From Rhizohabitans arisaemae (GTDB lineage: Bacteria > Actinomycetota > Actinomycetes > Streptosporangiales > Streptosporangiaceae): 64,000 bases of DNA. Positions 4,443 through 20,243 of the stretch are shown here, one piece after another. The stretch is from assembly GCF_025996515.1 (NCBI RefSeq), contig NZ_BLRH01000035.1, positions 496,001 to 560,000 on the forward strand. The letters run 5' to 3'. Positions within the stretch are counted from its first letter, which is position 1; each line of letters starts with the position of its first letter. Both the position numbers and the translations under genes were made by a program. The notes under the pieces are model-generated. The model worked only from the letters and a program-made list of their open reading frames with translations. It was not told the DNA's origin and did not search any database.

Positions 4443-5600
4443 CTACGTGAGTTCACCGGTGTCAGAGGACTCTGGAGTGGCCAGAAGAGATCGGGCCTGA
4501 GCCCCCCAGCCACTGACGTAACTGTTCGCCGAGGCCATCCGAGCTACGGCTGATGTGATCTTGGAGAGTGGCTTGCGAAGCTGGCGGCTGAGGTCTTTCC
4601 CCGAGTCGATGACATGGGACATCTCCAGGAGATAGCCGATGGCCTCGTTTGCGATTTCCTCCAGATCAATGAGACTGCTCAGGATCTCGTTGGTCTCTTC
4701 GGGACGCTCGTTGAGAGGTAGGCTCTCAACATGGGCGAGGACTAGGCGGACGCCGGCGTCGGCTGAGTACAGCCGCTCTGTGCAGTGTTTCGAGCTCGTA
4801 TCCATGTCGTTCGCAGGCCCACTGATTGCGGTCGCGAAACGCAGTATGACGGCCAGCATCGCCGTTGGCCGACGTTCCCCTTCCGTGAGCCTGCTGATTT
4901 CTGGAAGAAACGCGTCACAGGCTTCCATGATGGCTTGCAAGGAAGCGGTCAGATTCTCCAGATCGTCGACTATGGCCACCATCTCGACTTCGATCTGAGC
5001 GTAGGCGTCCAGTAGCCCCAGTGCGTCTTCTTTCTCGTCGATGGTGACGACGTCAGAGTTGACGACTGCGCCGTGCAGGATACGGGCCGGTGTGAGGATG
5101 TCGAATCCATTGCGAATGCCGAGTTCCAGCGTCTGGCGAAGAGCTTCACGAGCCTCGATCAGTCCGCCCTTGGTTCGGCCATACATGATGGTGCGGACCT
5201 TGGCGAGATAGAAAGGCAGGTCCGCTGCGTCGGCCGCGTCGCGGAGCTGGATCGTGGGTTTCCCTGTTCCCTGCCGGAGCGCCAGCTCCCAAATCACGTT
5301 GGGGTTGAGGCCAGTAAGATCGGCGATGACGAGGTCGGCCTCCTTGACGTGGCGGCAGATCTGGTCGGCGATTTCCCCAGTGCTGGGCAATTCGTCCGCT
5401 CGGATTGGGGTGATACCGAAGGCTGCGCAGGCAGTCTGAATAACGTTCTCGTAGACAACGCGCATTTCTTCGTAGATCTTCAACTTGGGGCTTCCCGCTT
5501 TGGCGTAGGGATCCCCGAGCGGTCCGAGTACGAAACACGACCAGGTTCCACCCAGTTCCTCTGCTGGGGCCCCGGCAATGGGGATATTGGCGATTGTCAA
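4443..5600 (-). CDS. TIR-like / nucleoside 2-deoxyribosyltransferase-like protein
   Basis: 385 residues. The N-terminal third has the fold signature shared by nucleoside 2-deoxyribosyltransferases and TIR-like NAD-processing domains: 'SCFVLGPLGDPY' (strand 1), 'RADELPSTGEIADQI', then 'EADLVIADLTGLNPNVIWEL', where the Glu of NVIWEL is the expected catalytic residue. The remaining 230 residues look mostly helical and are not recognised. The start is TTG at 5600, supported by AGGAGG at 5605-5610 and a 4-base overlap with the upstream HTH gene stop. Last gene of the six-gene operon. By analogy with TIR and deoxyribosyltransferase-like effectors it may hydrolyse a nucleotide or NAD; that is inference. 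Confidence 0.7.
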   Translation of the reverse strand: MTIANIPIAGAPAEELGGTWSCFVLGPLGDPYAKAGSPKLKIYEEMRVVYENVIQTACAAFGITPIRADELPSTGEIADQICRHVKEADLVIADLTGLNPNVIWELALRQGTGKPTIQLRDAADAADLPFYLAKVRTIMYGRTKGGLIEAREALRQTLELGIRNGFDILTPARILHGAVVNSDVVTIDEKEDALGLLDAYAQIEVEMVAIVDDLENLTASLQAIMEACDAFLPEISRLTEGERRPTAMLAVILRFATAISGPANDMDTSSKHCTERLYSADAGVRLVLAHVESLPLNERPEETNEILSSLIDLEEIANEAIGYLLEMSHVIDSGKDLSRQLRKPLSKITSAVARMASANSYVSGWGAQARSLLATPESSDTGELT

Positions 5601-5872
5601 CGAACCTCCTCATATTCTCTGGCGTGGTGGATACCCGATTTGATGTGCTCTGCATGAACGGGAACCTGCTCGAGTCCGAGCGCTTCCATCAACAGGGCTG
5701 TGGGGATGCGGTAATGGCGGCCGATGCGTAGGACAGAGCAGGGAAACGCGTCCGTGTGGATCAGCCGGTAAGCAGTGGCACGACAGATACCGAGGGCTTT
5801 CGCCGCGGTGGGAAGATCGAGTGTCAGCGGAAGGTCGAATGCTTCCGCGAAGGTGAGCGGTGTCTTGATCAA
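5597..5872 (-). CDS. Small excisionase/MerR-type helix-turn-helix protein
   Basis: 91 residues. A single HTH_17-like domain is visible: 'TAAKALGICRATAYRLIHTD' is the helix-turn-helix, followed by the short wing 'VLRIGRHYRIPTALLMEALG'. Proteins of this size and make-up bind DNA as excisionases (recombination directionality factors) or as small regulators. It overlaps both neighbours by 4 bases (ATGA upstream, TTGA downstream), so it is co-translated with the 236-aa protein and the TIR-like protein. No integrase gene is in the island, so a regulatory role is at least as likely as excision. Confidence 0.75.
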   Translation of the reverse strand: MIKTPLTFAEAFDLPLTLDLPTAAKALGICRATAYRLIHTDAFPCSVLRIGRHYRIPTALLMEALGLEQVPVHAEHIKSGIHHAREYEEVR

Positions 5873-6579
5873 CGGCGCGCTCCGATCGCGCGAAGCGAGA
5901 TGTGTCCCGTCGCCGCATCATCCAGCGGCCGTCGTGCGCGGAGGACGATATCGGCAAGTCCCAACCGGTAGGCGAGCGTCCCAAGACGTTCACCCTCGAT
6001 CCGGGTGGAGTCAGCGACGAAACGGAGGGGAGCGGAGAGTCGGTCAGGCCGTGGTGGTGGAATGAACTCCAATTCCCAGCCGCTTTCGGCGTACGACTCT
6101 AGGTCGTCGCGTGCCATGAGGTCGCACGAGTCGTTGACCGGTCGCTCCCGTCTGGCGGCGCATGCGAGTGCCCAGGTGCTCCTCGATGCGGCTATGAGGA
6201 GACTCTCACTGGCATCGAGCCGGTTCAGGTCGATGTTGTGCAGATTCTCCAGGAAGGCGGTGACGAACTCGGCCTCCAGATCCTCGCGAGATTCGCGGAA
6301 GCGGCTGGAGATCATGGACATGACGCGAGTCATCCATGGTTCGGCCAGCCAGACCGCAAACAGGAAACTTAGCTCTTGGTCGGGTTCGCCATGCCGTGCT
6401 GCCAGGATTGCAGCACGCCAGACGGCTTCGTATGGCCTGTTGCCCCTGATCGAGGCTTTCGCCTCCTGCGGAGTGAGACGGATCAGGCCGGAACTCGTGT
6501 CAACCAGCAGACCGGGATGCTGCTCGACAACGCGCGTCTCGATTGTCTGGAACAGGACGTTTCGTGGACGCAATGTCAT
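5869..6579 (-). CDS. Unrecognised 236-aa protein, weakly sigma-factor-like
   Basis: Not confidently recognised. The middle ('ISSRFRESREDLEAEFVTAF' and the following 'LENLHNID') resembles in pattern the helical region 2 of sigma-70-like proteins, where a 'sDLeqE' stretch is followed by a leucine-rich helix. No clear region 4 helix-turn-helix is seen. Residues 1-60 are unlike anything I know. Start ATG 6579 is backed by GAGGAGAG just upstream, which overlaps the end of the STAND-like gene (10-base gap). The stop overlaps the next gene by ATGA. Its fixed place in the operon suggests a functional link with the HTH protein and the TIR-like protein. Confidence 0.6.
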   Translation of the reverse strand: MTLRPRNVLFQTIETRVVEQHPGLLVDTSSGLIRLTPQEAKASIRGNRPYEAVWRAAILAARHGEPDQELSFLFAVWLAEPWMTRVMSMISSRFRESREDLEAEFVTAFLENLHNIDLNRLDASESLLIAASRSTWALACAARRERPVNDSCDLMARDDLESYAESGWELEFIPPPRPDRLSAPLRFVADSTRIEGERLGTLAYRLGLADIVLRARRPLDDAATGHISLRAIGARR

Positions 6580-6589
6580 TGATCTCTCC

Positions 6590-8452
6590 TCAGTACTGTT
6601 GATCGAGAACGGCGAGGAGCTGCTGGATGGCTGGATGCCGGTCCTCCCGTACTGTCGCTAGGAGCGCATCAAATGGTGCGGATCCGTCGGGGGAGAGGTA
6701 GGCGAATCGCTGCCAGGCGAGCATGGTGTCGCGGAGGCGTGACCCTGATCCGTGCGAACGTGTCACCCGACGAATGAGAATGGCTACCGAGCGTCTACCA
6801 GACTCCTTCACGATGTGCGCCTGGAACCAGGTGAGATATCTGGACAGGAGCCTGGGAAAGAGTGTTGTGGCGTAGCGTGTCTCCGCTTGGCCTGACTCCG
6901 TCCATCGCGTCAGCTCCTGCAGGACAACCGTCCGGTCACCCTGGTAGAACCGGTCCATCAGGGCTTCATCGATAGCGTTCGCGATGCGTGGGGCAGGATC
7001 CAAGTCTGAGTTTCGGATGAGCCTGACGACCAAGCCTAGGATGGGTGCGGTAGGCGTGGTCTCGGCACTGCCGCCGCAGGTCAGCGCTGTCACATAGCGG
7101 AGCCGCTCGTCGGTGCTGCCGGCCCAGCCGCCGAGCTGGGCGAAGATCTCGTCGGCATGTGTCATCTCAGCCACGAGGGTTCGCAGCGCGGCAGCGGCGA
7201 CCTTTGGGCCGCGTGGGTCGCGGGAAACGGCGCTGGCCCGAATCCGAGTCAGTTGCAGGTGTCGTGGGTGGACAACGGCCGACGTTGCGAGTGCCTGGCC
7301 TGCGGGCGGGATCAGTTCGGCCTCGGGCACACTGCGCAGCCACTCGGCGGCTGGCTCGGCGAGCGGGCCCCGCCAAACCTGACGGAGGATTGCTTTCGCC
7401 CAACGGCTGCGGGCGAAGACCACCCGGACCGGTGGGTCGTTGTGGCTATGCCTGACCGTCTCGACTCGCACGCCGACAGGGCGCAGGAGCGTTTCCAGAG
7501 ACCGAGGGGCCGCTTCGTTGGGAACCGTTCCTGCGATGCGTGCCAAGCGCCGAGCCTGTTCCGATACTGTTTCGGGCGGTTGGCCGACGAAGGCGGCCGC
7601 CGAAATCAGGACGTGGCGGAGGTCCTTGTCCAGGAACCAATCAGGGATGAGTTCGTGGACTTCTCTGTCCGCCCCCTCGTCAAGAGTCGATCTGATCGCG
7701 GCAAGTCTGCTTCTGTGAAGGTGGTCAGACGTATCGAGAAGTGCTTCGAGGACGTCCATGGCGTCTTGGGGAGAGCCGTCGCGTGAGAGTACGTTCCTGA
7801 GAAAACCCGGGGGAAGACCTCGGGTCACAAGACCTCGTTCCGATTCCTCTGGGACAGCCGCTCTGAGGCGCGCCGCGAAGACCTCTTCGGCGGAGGGCGG
7901 CTGACAGCGTACGAGAGCAGGACCGATGAGCCCCATCGTCCGATCGTCGAGACGGACCCCTTCAGGGAGGATCACGACCATTACCGCGTCCGCTGCCATC
8001 AGCCTCTCCCTGACCGCCACAATAGCCGCGCGGGATTGCATCAGAAGACTCGGTGAGCCATCTACCAGATAGCCGTCAGCCGCGCCTGGTTCGGGCGTCC
8101 AAGTCGCGAAATCGACATCCGGGCTCAGGCAGCGAATGATCACCTTGTCGTTCCGAAGGCCTGCGAGAAGGGCGCAGGCCACGGTCCGACGTCCTGTGCC
8201 GCGTTCTCCGGCCAGGAACAGGAGCCCTTCGCGAAGACCCTTCCTCGCTTTGCGGATTCCCCTTACCGGCACGAAGCCAGGCACGGGTTCGACAAGCAAA
8301 GACCCGATCAGGTTGGGGCTCGCAGACGGCACCTCCAGAGGCGACCGGGGATGTGTGCAGGACTGACTGCCTTGAACCCTTCCGTTGTTCAGGTTGTGAG
8401 CGATGTTGATAAGGAACTGGAAGGGTTCCTTCGACGCGTCGTCATGCATCAC
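6590..8452 (-). CDS. STAND-like NTPase/sensor with degenerate P-loop
   Basis: 620 residues. After a 60-residue N-terminal stretch comes a P-loop-like element 'LFLAGERGTGRRTVACALL' (residues 78-96). The Walker A lysine is replaced by the RR pair, so nucleotide hydrolysis is doubtful. 'ADAVMVVILPEG' is in the Walker B position but lacks the usual acidic pair. The C-terminal half is leucine/arginine-rich and helical, like a sensor repeat domain. The N-terminus carries N-L-N-N-G-R-V-Q-G (residues 20-28), nearly the same motif as the C-terminus of the upstream cyclase-like protein. The two genes overlap by 11 bases. Most likely a signalling scaffold paired with that protein. Confidence 0.6.
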   Translation of the reverse strand: MMHDDASKEPFQFLINIAHNLNNGRVQGSQSCTHPRSPLEVPSASPNLIGSLLVEPVPGFVPVRGIRKARKGLREGLLFLAGERGTGRRTVACALLAGLRNDKVIIRCLSPDVDFATWTPEPGAADGYLVDGSPSLLMQSRAAIVAVRERLMAADAVMVVILPEGVRLDDRTMGLIGPALVRCQPPSAEEVFAARLRAAVPEESERGLVTRGLPPGFLRNVLSRDGSPQDAMDVLEALLDTSDHLHRSRLAAIRSTLDEGADREVHELIPDWFLDKDLRHVLISAAAFVGQPPETVSEQARRLARIAGTVPNEAAPRSLETLLRPVGVRVETVRHSHNDPPVRVVFARSRWAKAILRQVWRGPLAEPAAEWLRSVPEAELIPPAGQALATSAVVHPRHLQLTRIRASAVSRDPRGPKVAAAALRTLVAEMTHADEIFAQLGGWAGSTDERLRYVTALTCGGSAETTPTAPILGLVVRLIRNSDLDPAPRIANAIDEALMDRFYQGDRTVVLQELTRWTESGQAETRYATTLFPRLLSRYLTWFQAHIVKESGRRSVAILIRRVTRSHGSGSRLRDTMLAWQRFAYLSPDGSAPFDALLATVREDRHPAIQQLLAVLDQQY

Positions 8453-9182
8453 GGCTCCAGGCGATCTGGTGGCCTTGAACGACGCCGTTGTTGATGTTTC
8501 CGTGTTTCACGTGATTGCTCATCCACATCGGCGGCCGTGAACCAGGCCCTCCACGTGGATCGGCGGATGTGGAGACGTTCTGGATCAGTCCTGTAGACGG
8601 GATGGGAACATAGAGGTAGCCCGGTTGGTGGAATCTCTTCGACGTCGCCTCTACCTTCGTGAACTGGCTCGGGCGAAGAGTGGTACGACCGCCCACGACA
8701 GTATTCTCGAATACCTCGGAGGACAGCAGGATCGCGGTGAAGGTGACGTCCGGATCGCTTTCCTCCAGAGCGCGATACAGGGGCTGGCTGTTCAGGAGTC
8801 GCGAAACCGTGTTCGTCGCGGCGGAGACGCCGGGGGTATCTGGACGCCGGTCATCCAGCAAGCCGGCATGAAGGGCTAGACGGAGTCGGAGGCGGATGCC
8901 TTGTGAACGCAGTTCTGGTCTCATGTCACTCAGGCGATGCTGTACGTGAGCGGCGAAGGGATCGATGAGCCGCGCGAGAGCTTGAATGGGGAAGGCTGCG
9001 AGGACGCCGTCGCCTTTGAACACTCTGAAAGCGAGGGCGTCCCAACTTTTGCCGAGTCCGGACGCCTCACAAGCGTCTCGAATCACTCGCTGGAAGTACA
9101 GGGAGACATCTGGCAGCGCAGTGTCGGGATGGGTGGTGAAGCCTTCTACATCGGCCGCCAACAGCGCTCGGTACTCCTCCAT
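8442..9182 (-). CDS. Class III nucleotide cyclase-like protein
   Basis: 246 residues, single catalytic-type domain. Metal-binding Asp11 lies in 'LLAADVEGFTTH' and Asp58 in 'VFKGDGVLAAF'. The transition-state pair Asn124/Arg128 lies in 'ATNTVSR' with the canonical N-x3-R spacing. The position of the adenine-specifying Lys of adenylate cyclases is Val54, so the base used is not predictable. 'LRLALHAGLL' matches the strand before the dimer-interface glycine. The C-terminal tail carries N-I-N-N-G-V-V-Q-G (229-237), shared with the next protein. It lies 64 bases downstream of a Crp-family gene with a cyclic-nucleotide-binding fold. Probably makes a cyclic nucleotide, possibly as a phage-response signal; activity is unproven. 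Confidence 0.75.
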   Translation of the reverse strand: MEEYRALLAADVEGFTTHPDTALPDVSLYFQRVIRDACEASGLGKSWDALAFRVFKGDGVLAAFPIQALARLIDPFAAHVQHRLSDMRPELRSQGIRLRLRLALHAGLLDDRRPDTPGVSAATNTVSRLLNSQPLYRALEESDPDVTFTAILLSSEVFENTVVGGRTTLRPSQFTKVEATSKRFHQPGYLYVPIPSTGLIQNVSTSADPRGGPGSRPPMWMSNHVKHGNINNGVVQGHQIAWSRDA

Positions 9183-9246: not shown

Positions 9247-9957
9247 CTAGGATTTGGCACGGCGCTGTCCACTTTCGGACAGGGAAACGAGGTGATCCCA
9301 CCTCAAGATCACAACGCGCCTCTGCTCGGTCTCGACGGTTCCAGCGCGACGAAGCCAGTGGAGTGCGTTGTCGACGGACTGGCGGCTTACGCCCACGGAT
9401 CCTCCGATCTCCTCATGGGTGAGCCTGACCTCATGCATGCCATCCGGCCGACGGCGGGCGAAGCGGAGAAGTGCATGACACACTTTCCTCTTGGCAGGAA
9501 GATGGATAATTAGGGTGTGCCAAGCGTTTATGTCGGCAACTCGAATCATGGCTTGTCGCCGCAATTCATCGCCAAGCTCCGATTCTCGGGCAAGCTTAAG
9601 AAACTGATTCGCCTGTAGCGTTGATATCTGGCATCGAGTCACGGCCTTAATTGAGCAGGATCGGGGCATTCCCGAGAGTATGCCAGTCGCTCCTAGGGTT
9701 TCTTTATGCTCAACAATCGAAAGAAGTATTGGCTTGCCGTCTGGCTGCTCCCTGACTGCCTTTACTTGTCCGTCAAGAAGTAGGATGACGCGATCAGGCA
9801 ATGTTCCCTGGTGGAGGATTGATTCTCCGGGAGACACGCATCGGGGGTGCCCGAATTCAATCAGCCCGTCCAAGAGGGCTTCTGGAATCTTCACCCTACC
9901 CACTATTGTCGAGCTAAAGGATGTAATCAAGATGTTTGGAAAAGTGAGCTGAGTCAC
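9247..9957 (-). CDS. Crp/Fnr family transcriptional regulator
   Basis: 236 residues from GTG 9957. Residues about 25-140 are a cNMP-binding beta-roll ('SPGESILHQGTLPDRVILLL' and 'DGQVKAV'), and the C-terminus has the HTH_Crp helix 'LTHEEIGGSVGVSRQSVDNAL'. First gene of the operon that includes the cyclase-like protein, so it is the obvious receptor for its product. A Crp-type palindrome (9943-9958) overlaps the GTG. Alternative GTG starts at 9903 or 9894 would leave this operator some 40-50 bases upstream, a normal regulatory position, so the true start may be shorter. Base composition is low for the window (29 G+C of 60 in 9601-9660), suggesting transfer. Confidence 0.9.
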   Translation of the reverse strand: MTQLTFPNILITSFSSTIVGRVKIPEALLDGLIEFGHPRCVSPGESILHQGTLPDRVILLLDGQVKAVREQPDGKPILLSIVEHKETLGATGILSGMPRSCSIKAVTRCQISTLQANQFLKLARESELGDELRRQAMIRVADINAWHTLIIHLPAKRKVCHALLRFARRRPDGMHEVRLTHEEIGGSVGVSRQSVDNALHWLRRAGTVETEQRRVVILRWDHLVSLSESGQRRAKS

Positions 9958-10636: not shown

Positions 10637-11668
10637 TCACAAATCTTTTTTGGTCGCGACGATGAGTTCGACGGGGCCGGGGAGTACGACGACGTCGCCG
10701 AAACCGCTCTCGCGTAGCAGACGCACGTAATGCTCGATCTCGTACAGGCGGCTGACGCACGCGTCGACCCCCATGAGGAAGTACGACCAGAAGAACTGGG
10801 CGGCGAGCCGTTCCGGGGTGCGGAACTCCTCGCAGATCAGGATCCGGCCGCCGGGCGGCAGGGCGCCGTGGGCTTTGCGGAGCAGCATGCGCGCCGTGGG
10901 GATCGGCCAGTCGTGCAGGACCCGGACGAACGACAGGGCGTCGTACCCGGCCGGGAGGGGTTCGCCCAGGAAATCACCGCCGACGAACCCGAGCCGGTGC
11001 CCGTGGGGGCTGTCGAGGCGGGTACGGCCGACCAGCGGCTCCGCTTCCGGCAGGTTGTAGACGTCCACGCGCAGGTCCGGGGAGTGCGCCAGCAGGTGGG
11101 CGGCGAGGGTGCCGTCGCCGCCTCCGACGTCCAGCAGGCGTGACCCGGGCGTGTTCCACAGTAGCTTCGCGTGCGTGCGGAACGTCTGGACGAACGGGGT
11201 GAGGCCGGCCGCCATGCTCTGTTCGAAGCCGGCCAGTTGCACGGCTCCCTGGGGTGGCCAGGCGAAGGCGTGCGGGGGGATCGACGTCATGCCGCGGAGT
11301 ACGCCGGCGAGGTCGCCGTACAGCATCCGCCACGGGTAGCGGTCGCGGTCGAGTTCCAGCGATCCGGGGCCGACGACTTCGGCCGCCGCGCGGCGCAGGC
11401 CGGGAACGGCTCGGTATCGGGTCAGGGTGTAGTCGTCGACGACGGCTTCGGCGCGGACCATGCCGAGGCTTTCCAGGCAGTCCAGCAGCTTGAACAGGCG
11501 ACCGGGAAGGACGTCCAGCCGGGCGCCCAGCTCGGCCACGCCGACGTCGGCCTCCTCCAGCGCGTCGAGCAGGCCGAGGTCGAGCGCGGTCCGTATGACG
11601 TCCATGGCTTTCGAGCCGTTGGCGAGGAGGCTCATGAGCGCTCGCGGCGAGTAGGCGGTGCCGGTCAT
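10637..11668 (-). CDS. SAM-dependent methyltransferase (O-methyltransferase family)
   Basis: 343 residues. The N-terminal dimerisation helices contain a winged-helix-like region, then the SAM motif 'LLDVGGGDGTLAAHLLA', 'VLHDWPIPTARMLLRKAH' (with the His-Asp pair of plant-type O-methyltransferases) and 'LPPGGRILICEEF'. Start ATG 11668 overlaps the kynureninase-like stop as ATGA; the longer in-frame extension upstream is antisense-frame noise. With tryptophan dioxygenase and kynureninase in one operon the substrate should be an (hydroxy)kynurenine or anthranilate. The same family does the C-methylation in actinomycin and sibiromycin aminobenzoate formation, so O- or C-methylation cannot be decided here. 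Confidence 0.88.
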   Translation of the reverse strand: MTGTAYSPRALMSLLANGSKAMDVIRTALDLGLLDALEEADVGVAELGARLDVLPGRLFKLLDCLESLGMVRAEAVVDDYTLTRYRAVPGLRRAAAEVVGPGSLELDRDRYPWRMLYGDLAGVLRGMTSIPPHAFAWPPQGAVQLAGFEQSMAAGLTPFVQTFRTHAKLLWNTPGSRLLDVGGGDGTLAAHLLAHSPDLRVDVYNLPEAEPLVGRTRLDSPHGHRLGFVGGDFLGEPLPAGYDALSFVRVLHDWPIPTARMLLRKAHGALPPGGRILICEEFRTPERLAAQFFWSYFLMGVDACVSRLYEIEHYVRLLRESGFGDVVVLPGPVELIVATKKDL

Positions 11669-12795
11669 CGGCCGACCTGCTTGCGTTCGACGTCCACGGC
11701 GTCCATGAAGGCGTCGACTTCGGCGATCGTGGTGTAGATGTGCGGGGCGACGCGGAGGGAGCCGCGCCAGCTGCACACGATGCCGCGGCCCGCCAGCCTG
11801 TTTCGTACGTGTTCGGCTCCCGGGAAGCGCAGGCAGACGACGCCCCCGCGGCTGTCCGGGTCGCGCGGCGTGAGCACCTGGATGTCTGCGGCGTCCGCGC
11901 GTTCCAGGATGCGGTCGGTGCAGGCGAGTGAGTGGCGCCGGATCTCGTCGATGCCGACGAGGGCCAGCAGGTCGAGCCCGACCCTGGAGATCATCGGCCC
12001 CAGGGGCATGGGGGTGCCGCCGGAGAGGCGCCGGGCGTCGGGGGCCCATCCGGCGGCCGGTCTGAAGCCGGTCGGGTCGGCGCCGGCGAGCCAGCCGGTC
12101 GCCGCCGGTCTGAGTTCGGGCAGCAGGTCGGGGCGGATGTAGAGGAACGCGGTGGAGGCTCCGCACATCCATTTGTGCGCGCCGCCCAGCAGGAAGTCGA
12201 CGCCGAGGGCGGTGACGTCCAGGGGGACCGCGCCCACGGTCTGGTAGGCGTCCACGATGACCTTCGCGCCGACCGCGTGCGCGCGGGCGACGATCCGTTC
12301 CAGGTCGAGGAGGGCTCCGGTCGCGTAGGCGCCGTGGGTGACGCACACGCACCGGGTGCGTTCGTCGATGGCGGCTTCCAGCGCGCCCACGTCGTGGCCT
12401 TGCAGGGGTACGACCTCCAGGTCCGCCCCGTAGCGGGCGAAGCCGCGCCACAGGAACGGGACGGTGGGGAACTCCAGATCGGTCGTGACCACTTTGGTGC
12501 GCCGGCCGGTGAAGTCGAGGCAGGTGGCGACGCGGGCGAGGAGGGTGCTCAGGTTGACGTCGGTGACGACCGATCCGGGTGGCGCGCCGATGAAACCGGC
12601 CACGGCGTCGGCGTAGGCCTGCGTCTGCTCCAGCCAGCCGGACCATATCTCGTCCCGCCAGTTGACCAGGGTCTGCCAGTAGCGCCGCAGGACCGTCTCC
12701 ACCCTCCGGGGTATCGCTCCGGTCGAGTTGCTGTTCAGGTACAGGCAGGTTTCCAGCAGCGGGAACTCGGCGCGTAGCGTGGCCTGGTCCATCAT
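11665..12795 (-). CDS. kynU: Kynureninase-like PLP enzyme (class V aminotransferase fold)
   Basis: 376 residues. 'CLYLNSNSTGAIPRRV' begins the fold; 'KVIVDAYQTVGAVPLDV' holds the PLP-pyridine Asp; 'LLGGAHKWMCG' holds the PLP Schiff-base Lys. Cleaves kynurenine or 3-hydroxykynurenine to (hydroxy)anthranilate plus alanine if it is a true kynureninase. Cysteine-desulfurase-like relatives share the fold, and the assignment leans on the neighbouring tryptophan dioxygenase. The start ATG at 12795 overlaps the dioxygenase stop by ATGA; a second ATG follows immediately. Confidence 0.85.
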   Translation of the reverse strand: MMDQATLRAEFPLLETCLYLNSNSTGAIPRRVETVLRRYWQTLVNWRDEIWSGWLEQTQAYADAVAGFIGAPPGSVVTDVNLSTLLARVATCLDFTGRRTKVVTTDLEFPTVPFLWRGFARYGADLEVVPLQGHDVGALEAAIDERTRCVCVTHGAYATGALLDLERIVARAHAVGAKVIVDAYQTVGAVPLDVTALGVDFLLGGAHKWMCGASTAFLYIRPDLLPELRPAATGWLAGADPTGFRPAAGWAPDARRLSGGTPMPLGPMISRVGLDLLALVGIDEIRRHSLACTDRILERADAADIQVLTPRDPDSRGGVVCLRFPGAEHVRNRLAGRGIVCSWRGSLRVAPHIYTTIAEVDAFMDAVDVERKQVGR

Positions 12796-13598
12796 TTCTC
12801 CGCCTGCGCGGTTCGCTCGGTCCCGGGGGCGTATCCGTCGCCGCGGTCCCAGCCCGCGGTCATCCGCTCGCGGACTTTCCAGAGCGGGCGGAAGAGCGGC
12901 TGCGTCATCCGGCCGGTCAGCACGGTGGTGGGCACCCCGTCGAGTGCCGCTGTACCTCTGCCGACGCCGATGGTCCGGCGGACGAGCATGAAGTGGGTGA
13001 ACAACCAGGTCTGATACGCCTCGTCGACATCCATCAGACATTCGAACGTGCGCTTGAGGTCGAGGTGCTCAGGGTCCGGTACGGCGTACACGTCGTAGAC
13101 GGAGGTTCCCCGGCGGTCCACGAGCCGGTCGAGCGCCTCCGACACGAACCCCGCGGCCAGCTGCACGCGGTTGAATCCCGGGGACTCCTGGCCGCTGCCC
13201 TTGCCAAGGTGCCGTCTGATGGTCTGGTAGGTGTCGGGGGTAAGCGTCTCCAGCACGCGCATTTCGCCTGCGAGGCACCGGCTGATCCGGATGATGCGCT
13301 CCAGCCGGGCGGTGGCGCTCCAGAGGTCGTCGCCCTCCAGTTCCCCGACCAGCTCGGTCAGTTCGTGCGTGAGGAGCTTCAGCCACATTTCCTGCACCTG
13401 GTGCACGATCTGGAACATCAACTCGTCGGAGCAGACGAGTTCGTCCGCGGGGGACTGCAGGGTGAACAGCTCGGAGGTCTTCAAATACAGCTCGTAGTCG
13501 AGCTTCCCCTCGCCCACAAAAGTCTTGAGCACGGAATTGAATATCGGCTTCGACACCTCATGGCGAAGGTCGTCGACGGTGATGCACGCTGTGTTCAC
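12792..13598 (-). CDS. kynA: Tryptophan 2,3-dioxygenase
   Basis: 268 residues from GTG 13598; an in-frame ATG at 13640 would add 14 residues, but the purine-rich AGAGAAGAG just before the GTG favours the shorter form. Family landmarks: 'MFQIVHQVQEMWLKLLTHEL' (heme-pocket helix), 'GSGQESPGFNRVQL' (substrate loop) and 'AYQTWLFTHFMLVRRTIG' (His/Arg segment). Opens the indole ring of Trp to N-formylkynurenine using heme iron. First gene of a three-gene operon. No kynurenine formamidase and no 3-monooxygenase gene is in the window, so those steps must be supplied elsewhere. Confidence 0.93.
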   Translation of the reverse strand: MNTACITVDDLRHEVSKPIFNSVLKTFVGEGKLDYELYLKTSELFTLQSPADELVCSDELMFQIVHQVQEMWLKLLTHELTELVGELEGDDLWSATARLERIIRISRCLAGEMRVLETLTPDTYQTIRRHLGKGSGQESPGFNRVQLAAGFVSEALDRLVDRRGTSVYDVYAVPDPEHLDLKRTFECLMDVDEAYQTWLFTHFMLVRRTIGVGRGTAALDGVPTTVLTGRMTQPLFRPLWKVRERMTAGWDRGDGYAPGTERTAQAEK

Positions 13599-13979
13599 AA
13601 CACTCTTCTCTCGCCGTGAACCGGCATATCGGGGAGACACCGAACGGCGAAGCCACTCGGTGTTCGTTTGGTACGGGTGTACGAAGGCGGTTTGAGCCGG
13701 CCGCCCTTTGCCACGCCCACACTGCGGCGAACCGGTCCGGCGGACCAGGCCTTATTACTCATTCGTGGCGGATCTCGCTTGTGGCGGATGCCGCCCGACT
13801 CACCGGCGTGCCGCCGCAGGGGTTCGCGCGATGAGCGCCGTACGGGAACTCAGGCTTCGGGCACCACGTCCTGGACACGCCGCCTGAAGTGGACGGCGTA
13901 GAGAACGGCCTGCGGCGCCGTGGAGCGAAAGGCGTCGTCTACGGTCGAGAACGCGATGCGCGGCGCCTTGTTCTTCGCT
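13599..13979. other. Intergenic region, promoter of the tryptophan dioxygenase operon
   Basis: About 380 bases between the end of the SARP-like gene and the dioxygenase start, both minus strand. No gene recognised. It must contain the operon promoter, and the SARP protein upstream is the obvious regulator. I looked for the heptamer direct repeats that SARPs bind and saw no convincing pair. Confidence 0.4.
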
Positions 13980-17610: not shown

Positions 17611-17682
17611 ATGAACTCTGAAGGTCAATATCTGCTTCAGTGGTGCATAGGGTCGCCTTCGACAAACCGATCCGGTCAATAA
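17611..17682 (+). CDS. Small upstream ORF before the class III synthetase
   Basis: ATG 17611 directly behind GGGGGAGGA opens a 23-codon frame ('MNSEGQYLLQWCIG' onward) that stops 14 bases before the LanKC start. Its single Cys lies before the Ser/Thr residues, opposite to the order needed for a class III core, so it is not an obvious lanthipeptide precursor. It could be a translational coupler or attenuator peptide, or chance. Confidence 0.35.
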   Translation: MNSEGQYLLQWCIGSPSTNRSGQ

Positions 17683-17696
17683 GCGGGGACGTATTC

Positions 17697-20243
17697 ATGC
17701 TTCGAATTTATGGCTACGCACAGGCGGATCCTGAGTTCTACGCCCCATTGTCACGGATTTCCGAGGCCGGGAGGCGATTCACACCCGAGGGTCTCTCCGA
17801 CGGCTGGACCTGTGCCACTCACGACATATGGACCGTCTGGCGTCATCCCGAGGTGGTTACCCCGGACCAGGGATGGAAGGTGCACGTTTCCGCTCGCCTT
17901 GACCGCGCCGACTTCGTGCTGAACACGGTGGCGCGGGCCTGCGATGCGGAGAAGGTGGCCTTCAAGCACCTGTCCGCGGAGGCGTTCTTCCTGTTTGTTC
18001 ATCACAAGCATGGGCCTAGGTCGCAGGCAGGGAAGTTCTGCGCCCTGTATCCGGCCGATGAACGGGCCGCCCTGCGCCTGATGGAACGGCTGGCGCGGGA
18101 CCTCGCTGAGGAGGAGGGACCCTACGTCCTTTCCGATCGGCGCTTCCGCGACTCGCGCACGGTGCACTACCGCTATGGCGCGTTCCGGTCACGGAGCCGG
18201 ATGCTGGCGAACGGCGATCGGGAAAGCCTGGTCCGCGACGGCAACGGCCTCGACGTACCGGACGTGCGGGGTGTCTCCTTCACGCCGCCTCCCGGCATCG
18301 AAGATCCTTTCACCGAGCCGCCGGACGGGGTGTGCGGGGGCCCGGTGACGATCCACGGCTATGAGATCGTCCAGGTCCTCCAGCACAGCAATGCCGGTGG
18401 GAGCTACCAGGCCAAGGACACCCGGACGGGCCGCATCGTGTTCGTCAAGGAGGCACGCGCGCACAACGGCCTGTTCTGGGATCGCACCACGGCCGTCGAC
18501 CGGCTACGACGGGAACATCGGGTGCTCACCGAGATCCACCTGGCCGTCCCCGGCGCCTGCCCCGAACCGTTGGACTACTTCCAGGAGTGGGAACACGAGT
18601 TCCTGGTGACCGAGTTCGTCGAAGGAACACCACTGAACAGGTGGATGGCCCGGCACTCGCCGCTGATCCAGTCCGGTCGGAGCGTGGCCGACTTCGACGC
18701 CTTCTACGGCAGCTGCACGCGGTTCCTCGACGAGCTGGACCATGCCCTCGGCCGCATCCACCAGGCCGGCTACCGCTATGGCGATCTCAATCCTCGAAAT
18801 GTGATGGTGAGCCCCGCCGGAGCCAGGCTGATCGACTTCGAGTCGTGTGAACACCGCACCGCTCCACTCATCCGCATGGGTGCGAACGGATACATACCGC
18901 CCGAGGAACTTGCTCTGGAGGGCCCTTTCGCCTGGGACGAATACGGTCTTTCCGCCGTCGCACTGGGCCTGATCATGCCATTGCACTCGGTGATCCAGCG
19001 GAGTTCGGGAAACCTGCGCCTGCTGCGCAGGGACGTCGAGCGGCACGCTCCCGTTCCCGCCGAGCTCTGGCGGCGTGCCACCCGGTTCCACAACGAGCGG
19101 GACACGGCACAGCGGCTCCCCACGCCCGAGGAGCTCGACGAACGACCGCGGGAGAGCCTTGGACGGTTCGCCGAGCAGGTCAGGATCGGGCTGGCCGACA
19201 TGGTCGGCGTCGAGCGGCTTGATCGAGTCTTCCCCACGGTTCCCCGCGGGTACGAGACGAACCTGCTCTCCGTCGCCTACGGCTTGGCCGGCATCCTGCA
19301 CGCCTTGCAGGTCACCGGCTCCACGATCCCGGCCGAGCTGGTCGAACGTCTTCGCGTCCAGGCAGTGAACGGCGGCGCCGACCTTCCACCGGGACTGCAC
19401 ATCGGGGCGGCCGGCGTCGGCTGGATTCTCGCCGATCTCGGGCTTCTCGACGAAGCCGGTGACCTGCTCACGGGCGCTGCCCGTCATCCTGTGCTGGGTA
19501 CGTCGACCACGCTGGGCGAGGGGCGGGCCGGCATCGGTATGGCGGCTCTGCGCATGCACCTTGGCACCGGCGAGCAACGTTTCCTCGACATGGCCGTCGC
19601 CTCGGGCGAGGCCATTGTCGGCACGGGCGATCTGCGCTCGACATTGGGACCGGACAACGCCCGCGGGCTGCTGCACGGCCGGTCCGGCCTCGCCCTGTTC
19701 CTGCACCGGCTGGGCGCCGTGACCGGTGACCACCGGTATGTGCGACAAGGAAGGCGTCTCCTGCATGGGGAGCTCGACCTGGCGATGGAGATGCCGGACG
19801 GTGCGCTCTCTTTCACCGACAACGATCTGACCAGGCGTTCCATGCCCTATCTGTTCAGCGGCTCGGCGGGTGTCGGGTTGGTGTTGGGCCGGTACGCGGC
19901 CGACGCCGCCGACGAGCGGATCGCCGCTGCCCTGCCACGTGTCCTCAGCGATTTCCATAAGAACTGCTGCGTGTTTCCCGCGCTGTACTGCGGTCTGGCG
20001 GGTCTGGCGTTCGCGCTCGCGGACTACGCCGACGTCGTTTGGGATCCGAGAGCGGCGGACGACGCCGTGAAGGTCGCCACCGGCTTGGTCAAATACGCGA
20101 TCGAAGGTGGGCAGGGCGTTCGCTTTCTTGGCGACGGAAACCTCAAGTTCAGCGCGGAGCTCTGGAGCGGCGGAGCGGGTGTACTGCTGGCCCTGCATCG
20201 GGTGCTGAACGGTTCTTCCGGTCATTTCCTGTTGCTCGATTGA
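17697..20243 (+). CDS. lanKC: Class III lanthipeptide synthetase (LanKC)
   Basis: 848 residues. Order: N-terminal phosphoSer/Thr lyase-like domain (about 1-210), Ser/Thr kinase domain (about 220-480) with catalytic-loop Asp363/Asn368 in 'YGDLNPRNVMV' and Mg-binding Asp380 in 'LIDFES', then a LanC-like domain. The LanC zinc sites are altered: 'YLFSGSAGVG' where zinc enzymes have WCxG, and 'ALYCGLAG' where they have CHG. That makes it class III, able to form labionin as well as lanthionine. Start ATG 17697 after AAGCGGGGA. Two precursor genes follow. Phosphorylates, eliminates and cyclises Ser/Thr with Cys in those peptides. Confidence 0.92.
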   Translation: MLRIYGYAQADPEFYAPLSRISEAGRRFTPEGLSDGWTCATHDIWTVWRHPEVVTPDQGWKVHVSARLDRADFVLNTVARACDAEKVAFKHLSAEAFFLFVHHKHGPRSQAGKFCALYPADERAALRLMERLARDLAEEEGPYVLSDRRFRDSRTVHYRYGAFRSRSRMLANGDRESLVRDGNGLDVPDVRGVSFTPPPGIEDPFTEPPDGVCGGPVTIHGYEIVQVLQHSNAGGSYQAKDTRTGRIVFVKEARAHNGLFWDRTTAVDRLRREHRVLTEIHLAVPGACPEPLDYFQEWEHEFLVTEFVEGTPLNRWMARHSPLIQSGRSVADFDAFYGSCTRFLDELDHALGRIHQAGYRYGDLNPRNVMVSPAGARLIDFESCEHRTAPLIRMGANGYIPPEELALEGPFAWDEYGLSAVALGLIMPLHSVIQRSSGNLRLLRRDVERHAPVPAELWRRATRFHNERDTAQRLPTPEELDERPRESLGRFAEQVRIGLADMVGVERLDRVFPTVPRGYETNLLSVAYGLAGILHALQVTGSTIPAELVERLRVQAVNGGADLPPGLHIGAAGVGWILADLGLLDEAGDLLTGAARHPVLGTSTTLGEGRAGIGMAALRMHLGTGEQRFLDMAVASGEAIVGTGDLRSTLGPDNARGLLHGRSGLALFLHRLGAVTGDHRYVRQGRRLLHGELDLAMEMPDGALSFTDNDLTRRSMPYLFSGSAGVGLVLGRYAADAADERIAAALPRVLSDFHKNCCVFPALYCGLAGLAFALADYADVVWDPRAADDAVKVATGLVKYAIEGGQGVRFLGDGNLKFSAELWSGGAGVLLALHRVLNGSSGHFLLLD

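Follow-up and report, generated by a model that had tools for sequence, protein, structure and literature searches.

Matched terminal motifs in a predicted nucleotide cyclase and its P-loop-like neighbour in Rhizohabitans arisaemae

Some bacterial receptors and effectors carry the same short motif, a bacterial amyloid signalling sequence (BASS). The motif lies at the C-terminus of the effector and again at the N-terminus of the receptor, whose gene is adjacent or overlapping (PMC7889193, PMC8086366, PMC12261475). In the NLR pairs described, the N-terminus of the NLR hands the signal to the C-terminus of the effector. The effectors of the published bacterial amyloid pairs are Bell, CHAT or TIR proteins; what the signal leads to in filamentous bacteria is described as yet to be explored (PMC7889193). 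A comparable motif pair occurs in a 64,000-nucleotide stretch of the actinobacterium Rhizohabitans arisaemae (contig NZ_BLRH01000035.1, positions 496,001 to 560,000; the whole stretch is called the window). One copy lies near the end of a predicted nucleotide cyclase, and the other near the beginning of a protein encoded by the next, overlapping gene, here called the partner.

The locus resembles the BASS/NLR pairs in several respects. The same motif is found at the C-terminus of the putative effector and at the N-terminus of the adjacent putative receptor, related loci carry several motif families without a clear common sequence, and the hosts are actinobacteria (compare PMC7889193, PMC8086366 and PMC12261475). 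It differs in that the effector is a predicted class III cyclase rather than a Bell, CHAT or TIR protein, that the partner matches no NACHT or NB-ARC family in Pfam, and that a Crp-type regulator accompanies the pair. The word "cyclase" is absent from the main text of PMC8086366, PMC12261475, PMC9815663 and PMC7889193. Among the papers searched, titles and abstract beginnings likewise mention no cyclase in amyloid signalling, although the 2020 paper that defined BASS, or supplements, could list one.

The nearest idea in print is that of Kaur et al., in which effector-associated domains (EADs) couple cyclic nucleotide (cNMP) cyclases to NTPase systems (PMC7159879, PMC8195603). In such systems, among them VMAP and iSTAND2, one adaptor is copied on the core NTPase and on an enzyme encoded beside it; homotypic coupling is proposed, and cNMP cyclases are among the coupled enzymes. 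EADs are small folded domains, mostly helical (PMC7159879, PMC8195603), whereas the cyclase and partner have a short, highly variable terminal tag. A general Pfam scan, in which no EAD profile was run by name, found no domain shared by the two proteins.

Like Pycsar, the locus combines a class III-type cyclase with a cNMP-binding protein. Unlike Pycsar, the cNMP-binding domain is fused to the helix-turn-helix (HTH) of a DNA-binding regulator and not to a transmembrane or TIR effector. PADLOC was negative for both cyclase and partner, and assignment to Pycsar or another known defence system was rejected. The principle of templating from receptor to effector, and a short motif rich in Asn, Gly and Gln, are also shared with fungal HET-s, PP and sigma and with mammalian RHIM. 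A Pfam search with the window proteins returned none of these families at E<=1.

Matched motifs at facing gene ends

On the minus strand of the window, genes follow in the order Crp-type regulator, cyclase-like protein, partner, 236-residue protein, 91-residue HTH protein and 385-residue protein. The genes for the cyclase (8442-9182, 246 residues) and the partner (6590-8452, 620 residues) overlap by 11 bases if the partner begins at a GTG codon; an ATG one codon later would shrink the overlap to 8 bases. The cyclase motif, NINNGVVQG, comprises residues 229-237 (8472-8498) and is followed by nine residues up to the C-terminus. The partner motif, NLNNGRVQG, comprises residues 20-28 (8369-8395). 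The two copies agree at seven of nine residues and 21 of 27 bases, so the shared N-x-N-N-G-x-V-Q-G described in the initial annotation of this DNA is exact in coordinates, residues and identity.

The similarity extends beyond the nonapeptide (SRPPMWMSNHVKHGNINNGVVQGHQ / SKEPFQFLINIAHNLNNGRVQGSQ), and the two termini score 47 in a local alignment, against a maximum of 35 over 200 shuffles. When the pattern was reverse-translated and searched in the 8,326,683-base assembly (63 contigs, 98% complete), it matched just these two sites; a reversed control pattern gave zero matches. The annotation had also spoken of RHIM-like BASS motifs with V-Q cores. The RHIM tetrad core is [IV]Q[IVLC]G, and the window motif, with the core VVQG-HQ (VVQGHQ), lacks this tetrad. 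RHIM membership was rejected on the negative Pfam result at E<=1, and the label is doubtful.

At E<=1e-6, 159 of the 297 family genomes scanned, among which R. arisaemae itself is counted, carry a cyclase relative. From the listed matches 60 were picked by hand, mostly top-ranked, with flanks of about 6 kb where the contig allowed. Another 40 loci were added later, including places from a profile scan of phylum genomes, in which 8 of 396 genomes (own included) had cyclase matches at E<=1e-10. The closest cyclase relative found is that of Nonomuraea typhae (76%). A scan of 341 family genomes for the partner found it in six, the window's own included. The two genes are tightly packed: at 43 of 73 cyclase-partner junctions they overlap by 4 bases, at 56 they overlap, and at 67 they overlap or are separated by at most 15 bases.

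Five of the six cyclases in the window clade carry GN[ILV]N[NT]G, and the partner motif matches each time. In the sixth member (G712, judged by eye) the motif is in neither gene, and the cyclase tail has about 12 residues. A motif in one partner only, which had been named as evidence against docking, was thus not seen in this clade. Elsewhere the motif class varies by clade, but the two partners within a pair still agree. In a close clade, for example L034, the cyclase ends like GVTINGDGAQNAIGNTVGGDFRQ and the next protein begins FTISGDGAQNVIGNTVSRDLIVQ. More distant motif classes pair AVFRERVGQAFTGGTFHGDFNF with EFYERVETAIVDGTFYGDFTF (L074), GGIGSIGGDVGTALGEVRGPVNIGGTQ with GGIGSIGGGVGTAVAGVRGPVNVGGTQ (L088), HFANAHVRADKVVGGDEITYL with NLTGARVRAQKVVGGDEITYI (L143) and NDHGQVVQAGTLHGG with NGHGRLVQAETVHGG (L082); the motifs of the L082 pair look, in our estimate, RHIM/BASS3-like.

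Tail lengths of the cyclases serve as a natural control. The end of the cyclase core could be placed automatically in 62 of 98 loci, and the 49 partnered cyclases among these have tails of 45-145 residues. Several relatives without such a partner have tails of 13-20 residues past the core (L125, L128, L129, L130, L063). In L031, on a contig of 4,811 bases, the tail has 13 residues without a motif and no partner was seen. In L080 and L073 (tails of 46 and 24 residues) the next gene falls just under the length limit set for a partner.

One clade departs from this arrangement. In L070, L078 and L080 the cyclase lacks a motif, and the C-terminus of the next protein strongly matches the N-terminus of the following gene product; in L070 these are GGVFVGGSFHNGAIATGKDTKAEDNS and GGVFIGGSMTGGAIVTGKEGRAEDRS. 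The same match, one gene further on, is weaker in L073. It is as if the coupling device had shifted one gene downstream. In L091, the cyclase tail NVAYGGGDAIGGHKVGRDLNL recurs as NLAYGGGDAIGGHQIGRDLNI in a small downstream protein of 112 residues, not in a large partner.

Several comparisons were used to measure how closely the two termini agree. In a set of 53 pairs, drawn from 62 loci of which nine were removed by hand after inspection (L063, L067, L070, L073, L078, L079, L080, L090, L091), 47 own pairs scored above every one of 200 alignments with a shuffled partner N-terminus. At most one shuffle reached the score in 50 pairs; L062, L085 and L092 were not significant. An alignment z test without hand selection, which leaves out the window, L033, L085 and L092, gave z>=4 at 57 of 73 cyclase-partner junctions. 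Controls were other adjacent gene pairs of the same loci, on the same strand and with a gap of at most 300 bases. Such scores were reached by one of 75 Crp-cyclase junctions, four of 66 junctions between the partner and the next gene (three of them in the L070 clade) and four of 313 others.

Partners were also swapped between loci. The final set of 80 pairs contains no hand-added pairs; L148 was kept and only the fused L067 was dropped. Swapping lowered the score at p 5e-5, the floor of the test, with 39, 28, 24 and 14 representatives (cyclase identity below 60, 50, 45 and 40%), and at p 2e-4 with nine representatives below 35%. A version with 81 pairs agrees; in it L146 and L147 had been added by hand after their motifs were viewed, and L148 was dropped as its partner start was not found. 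The first test, with 53 pairs, had no power for distant clades (p 0.17 with four representatives below 40%, p 0.5 with two below 35%). The own partner ranks first in only 23 of 53 pairs of the first set and 34 of 80 of the final one, since closely related loci have motif classes in common.

Similarity between cyclase tails also predicts similarity between partner N-termini once both core identities are removed (partial Mantel correlation of ranks 0.37, reached in none of 2000 permutations). The covariation that the initial annotation had suggested looking for is therefore present beyond relatedness or chance: the shuffles reject chance or composition, and swapping among representatives together with the partial Mantel correlation rejects shared ancestry alone. 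The covariation of these sequences supports the view that the two termini form a coupled pair.

Identity of the two proteins

Neither Pfam nor NCBIfam matches the cyclase above cutoff. Among 39 aligned cyclases, D11, G57, D58, R99, R101, R128 and K182 are invariant, among others; in the window, the codons for D11, D58, R128 and K182 lie at 9150-9152, 9009-9011, 8799-8801 and 8637-8639. In terms of the anatomy of class III cyclases, the metal ligands are presumably D11 and D58, R128 the transition-state arginine and K182 the lysine that contacts the triphosphate. With the roles so assigned, the class III signature of two metal-binding aspartates, an arginine and a lysine is present in all 39.

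A profile search placed the mycobacterial cyclase Ma1120 at E 0.04, beneath one spurious designed protein. That top hit in the PDB (7rdr, 4e-5) is a designed repeat protein without a passing stretch and was disregarded. Foldseek, run with the cyclase model (mean pLDDT, the model's own confidence score, 42.8), returned class III cyclases at all of ranks 1-13, with TM-scores of at most 0.43; the pyrimidine cyclases 8jsz and 7r65 stand at ranks 8 and 24. These lines are individually weak yet concordant, and sequence and model suggest an active class III nucleotide cyclase.

The partner has no Pfam, NCBIfam or PADLOC match above cutoff. It resembles nSTAND3 far below cutoff (E 0.11 over residues 60-107) and VMAP-M8 at E 0.083, with no VMAP model above cutoff, and it has weak profile matches to P-loop NTPases and armadillo repeats. 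Partners of other clades are homologous to that of the window (hhalign probability 99.9%, E 4.5e-34, 563 columns). The consensus of the STAND Walker A motif is GxxxxGK[ST]; the window partner reads GERGTGRRT at residues 82-90 (8183-8209, minus strand), with arginine in place of the lysine. GK occurs at this position in just two of 35 aligned partners (L039, L081). Helices, probably in the C-terminal part, are seen solely in a structure model of low confidence.

By its sequence, then, the partner belongs to an undescribed kind of protein, P-loop-like but degenerate. The earlier term "STAND-like" is fair as a description, while STAND membership is doubtful because the Walker A lysine is absent in 33 of the 35.

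In one relative (L067), judged by eye, an open reading frame of 583 residues runs from the cyclase into a P-loop-like region and includes an FHA-like stretch. This may be a natural fusion of the two partners.

A possible mechanism and its alternatives

The sequences contain a pair of matched motifs at facing termini of overlapping genes, concerted change of the two motifs, conserved catalytic residues and a Crp-type gene beside most pairs. What goes beyond the matching of the motifs is inferred, including amyloid formation, which is proposed by analogy with the published pairs. On balance it is rather probable that the motif pair is a homotypic docking device of the amyloid-signalling type, with the partner as sensor, the cyclase as receiver and the Crp-type regulator as readout.

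The partner, with its degenerate P-loop-like stretch and helical part, would act as the sensor and oligomerise when triggered. A beta-arch nucleus built from its N-terminal motifs would then recruit the C-terminal motifs of cyclase molecules and act as their template. Clustering of cyclases in this way could bring about their dimerisation. This would suit activation, because class III cyclases are active as dimers (PMC4886424). The cyclic nucleotide would bind the Crp-type regulator and alter transcription of the locus, and probably of others. In the window clade, the downstream 385-residue protein could serve as terminal effector. The likely purpose would be defence or a stress response in a presumably filamentous actinobacterium.

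The signal would probably run from partner to cyclase to cNMP to Crp-type regulator, which is opposite to the direction given in the initial annotation. There, docking was thought to wire cyclase output to the STAND protein. The coupling of the two termini is borne out by covariation; that wiring is doubtful, possible but less likely, since the described pairs run from the N-terminus of an NLR receptor to the C-terminus of an effector (PMC7889193) and the cyclase is thus the more likely receiver.

Chances are about even that these loci represent a widespread, undescribed actinobacterial system in which prion-like templating activates a cyclase. Amyloid nucleation would then be amplified into a diffusible cNMP read by a Crp-type regulator of the same locus, and diversification of the motifs pair by pair would insulate parallel pathways. 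If so, a messenger-making effector beside its likely reader would turn the question of signal outcome into an enzyme assay and a transcription assay. It would be a first functional hypothesis for three families that neither Pfam nor NCBIfam matches above cutoff (the cyclase, the partner and the 236-residue protein). The dozens of naturally matched motif pairs would provide material for specificity tests.

A number of observations weigh against the proposed docking and signalling. At 16 of the 73 cyclase-partner junctions z is below 4. Eight of these are matched by eye (L062, L084, L112, L124, L127, L133, L138, L142) and two are faint (L117 and L120, near residues 140-146 of long partner N-termini), and no pair is visible in L063, L070, L078, L110, L119 and L148. 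In L079, L132 and L141 the cyclase has a tail of 49-73 residues although no partner was called. Pfam families of amyloid motifs are missing from the window proteins' hits at E<=1. The partner has no recognised sensor repeats and mostly lacks the Walker A lysine. The transition-state asparagine of the cyclase, N124, is kept in just 19 of 39 aligned sequences, and in the cNMP pocket of the window's Crp-type regulator GA replaces GE. Finally, the quality of the structure models is low (mean pLDDT 42.8 for the cyclase and 37.9 for the partner).

The motifs could instead dock through an ordinary stoichiometric interface, of beta-strands or otherwise, or through a shared third protein, giving a standing complex with no templated assembly of amyloid type. 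This alternative is rather unlikely. The covariation would fit any homotypic or matched interface, and in L070, L078, L080 and more weakly L073 the motifs join other gene pairs, as if the tags were general adaptors, a role that has been proposed for EADs (PMC7159879). Templated assembly is favoured by the form of the motifs. They are short, stand at the ends of long tails, in most cases combine abundant Gly, Asn and Gln with scattered hydrophobic residues, and are nearly copies of each other within a pair. These traits resemble the published amyloid signalling pairs (PMC7889193, PMC8086366), and the resemblance is not proof. It is a good deal less probable again that the partner silences the cyclase, or that the cyclase is a non-catalytic nucleotide sensor, so that the motif pair would mainly bring nucleotide sensing to the partner, a reading near the direction given in the initial annotation. 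N124 is missing in 20 of the 39 cyclases and the base-selecting positions vary, and inactivity has been reported for several cyclase domains that are fused to vWA components of conflict systems (PMC7159879). Yet both metal-binding aspartates, the arginine and the triphosphate lysine are invariant in all 39, and a cNMP-binding regulator lies beside the pair in 49 of 58 loci.

A third possibility, very improbable, is that the shared motif has no function and was left behind by gene conversion across the overlap of the genes or by DNA duplication, an origin raised in the initial annotation. In the window, 8 of 11 codons are the same at identical aligned residues against 5.5 expected, with the 21 identical bases of the two nonapeptides, and the count is likewise above expectation in L035, L036, L052, L075 and L088, so that conversion may have taken place now and then. 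Over 50 pairs, however, 488 of 761 identical residues (64%) have one and the same codon in both genes, barely above the 59% expected from codon use. The match is therefore kept mostly at the protein level. Both copies are in the correct reading frame, occupy fixed ends of the proteins and are still there in deeply diverged relatives. Codon use thus speaks against duplication as the origin.

The module and its neighbours

The first gene of the module encodes a Crp/Fnr-type regulator (9247-9957, minus strand) with a cNMP-binding domain and a Crp-type HTH (Pfam cNMP_binding 9.1e-17, HTH_Crp_2 7e-13), an identity that is firm from sequence. The count of 49 of 58 loci given above refers to a Crp homologue immediately upstream of the cyclase. 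A second count gave 63 of 72 loci with a partner and 8 of 25 without; as its Crp model was partly built from the same genes, the former figure is the cleaner one. The Crp alignment has 52 rows, from which L040 and L066 were excluded for the pocket count as non-Crp. In the remaining 50, the canonical GE of the cNMP pocket is found in 34 and GD in nine, and the arginine that follows is present in all. The pocket reads GA...RS in the window and L033, and GR...RS in L093.

Downstream of the partner lie the 236-residue protein (5869-6579), the 91-residue HTH protein of HTH_17/excisionase type (5597-5872; Pfam HTH_17 9.6e-10) and the 385-residue protein (4443-5600), all on the minus strand. The order from cyclase to 385-residue protein is kept in all six members of the window clade, one of them split over two contig ends. 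Searches with tblastn find the Crp gene in four of the five relatives in this clade, and in the fifth (L158) the upstream frame is Crp-like by eye. The 236-residue protein has no Pfam match, and its relative in L093 has neither a Pfam nor an NCBIfam match.

The 385-residue protein, the candidate effector, resembles enzymes of the nucleoside deoxyribosyltransferase/TIR type in its sequence. The PADLOC model for TIR effectors matches all six clade members (best 4.7e-7), the Pfam family Nuc_deoxyrib_tr matches all six weakly (best 0.0013, window 0.084), and E105 is invariant in the six. A profile search of the PDB gave Rcl/DNPH1 at E 0.04, ranked under coiled-coil hits to the helical part. Those coiled coils, the top hits of the search, were disregarded.

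Other arrangements occur among the relatives. The own genome contains two further cyclase-partner arrangements that belong to other clades, G000:C8 (L119) and G000:C33 (L120); the cyclase tail of L120 has a faint match inside its partner, and that of L119 has none. In 20 loci the next gene after the partner belongs to a further family (221-585 residues), and in many of them it overlaps the partner by 4 bases (L062, L064-L066, L068, L069, L071, L072, L074-L077, L081-L084, L086-L089). Three members that were scanned (L062, L074, L075) have no Pfam match. In L075 and L088, the sixth and seventh genes after the cyclase encode another Crp-type regulator and another relative of the cyclase, which suggests tandem copies of part of the module.

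Adjoining the module in the window, minus-strand genes at 10640-13640 encode, by Pfam, a tryptophan 2,3-dioxygenase, a kynureninase-like aminotransferase and an O-methyltransferase. We take these to be genes as in biosynthesis from precursors of the 3-hydroxyanthranilate type. Further along, on the plus strand (17640-20243), a RamC-like kinase/LanC-like protein is encoded (Pfam RamC_N 3.4e-59), presumably of the type linked to lanthipeptide morphogens.

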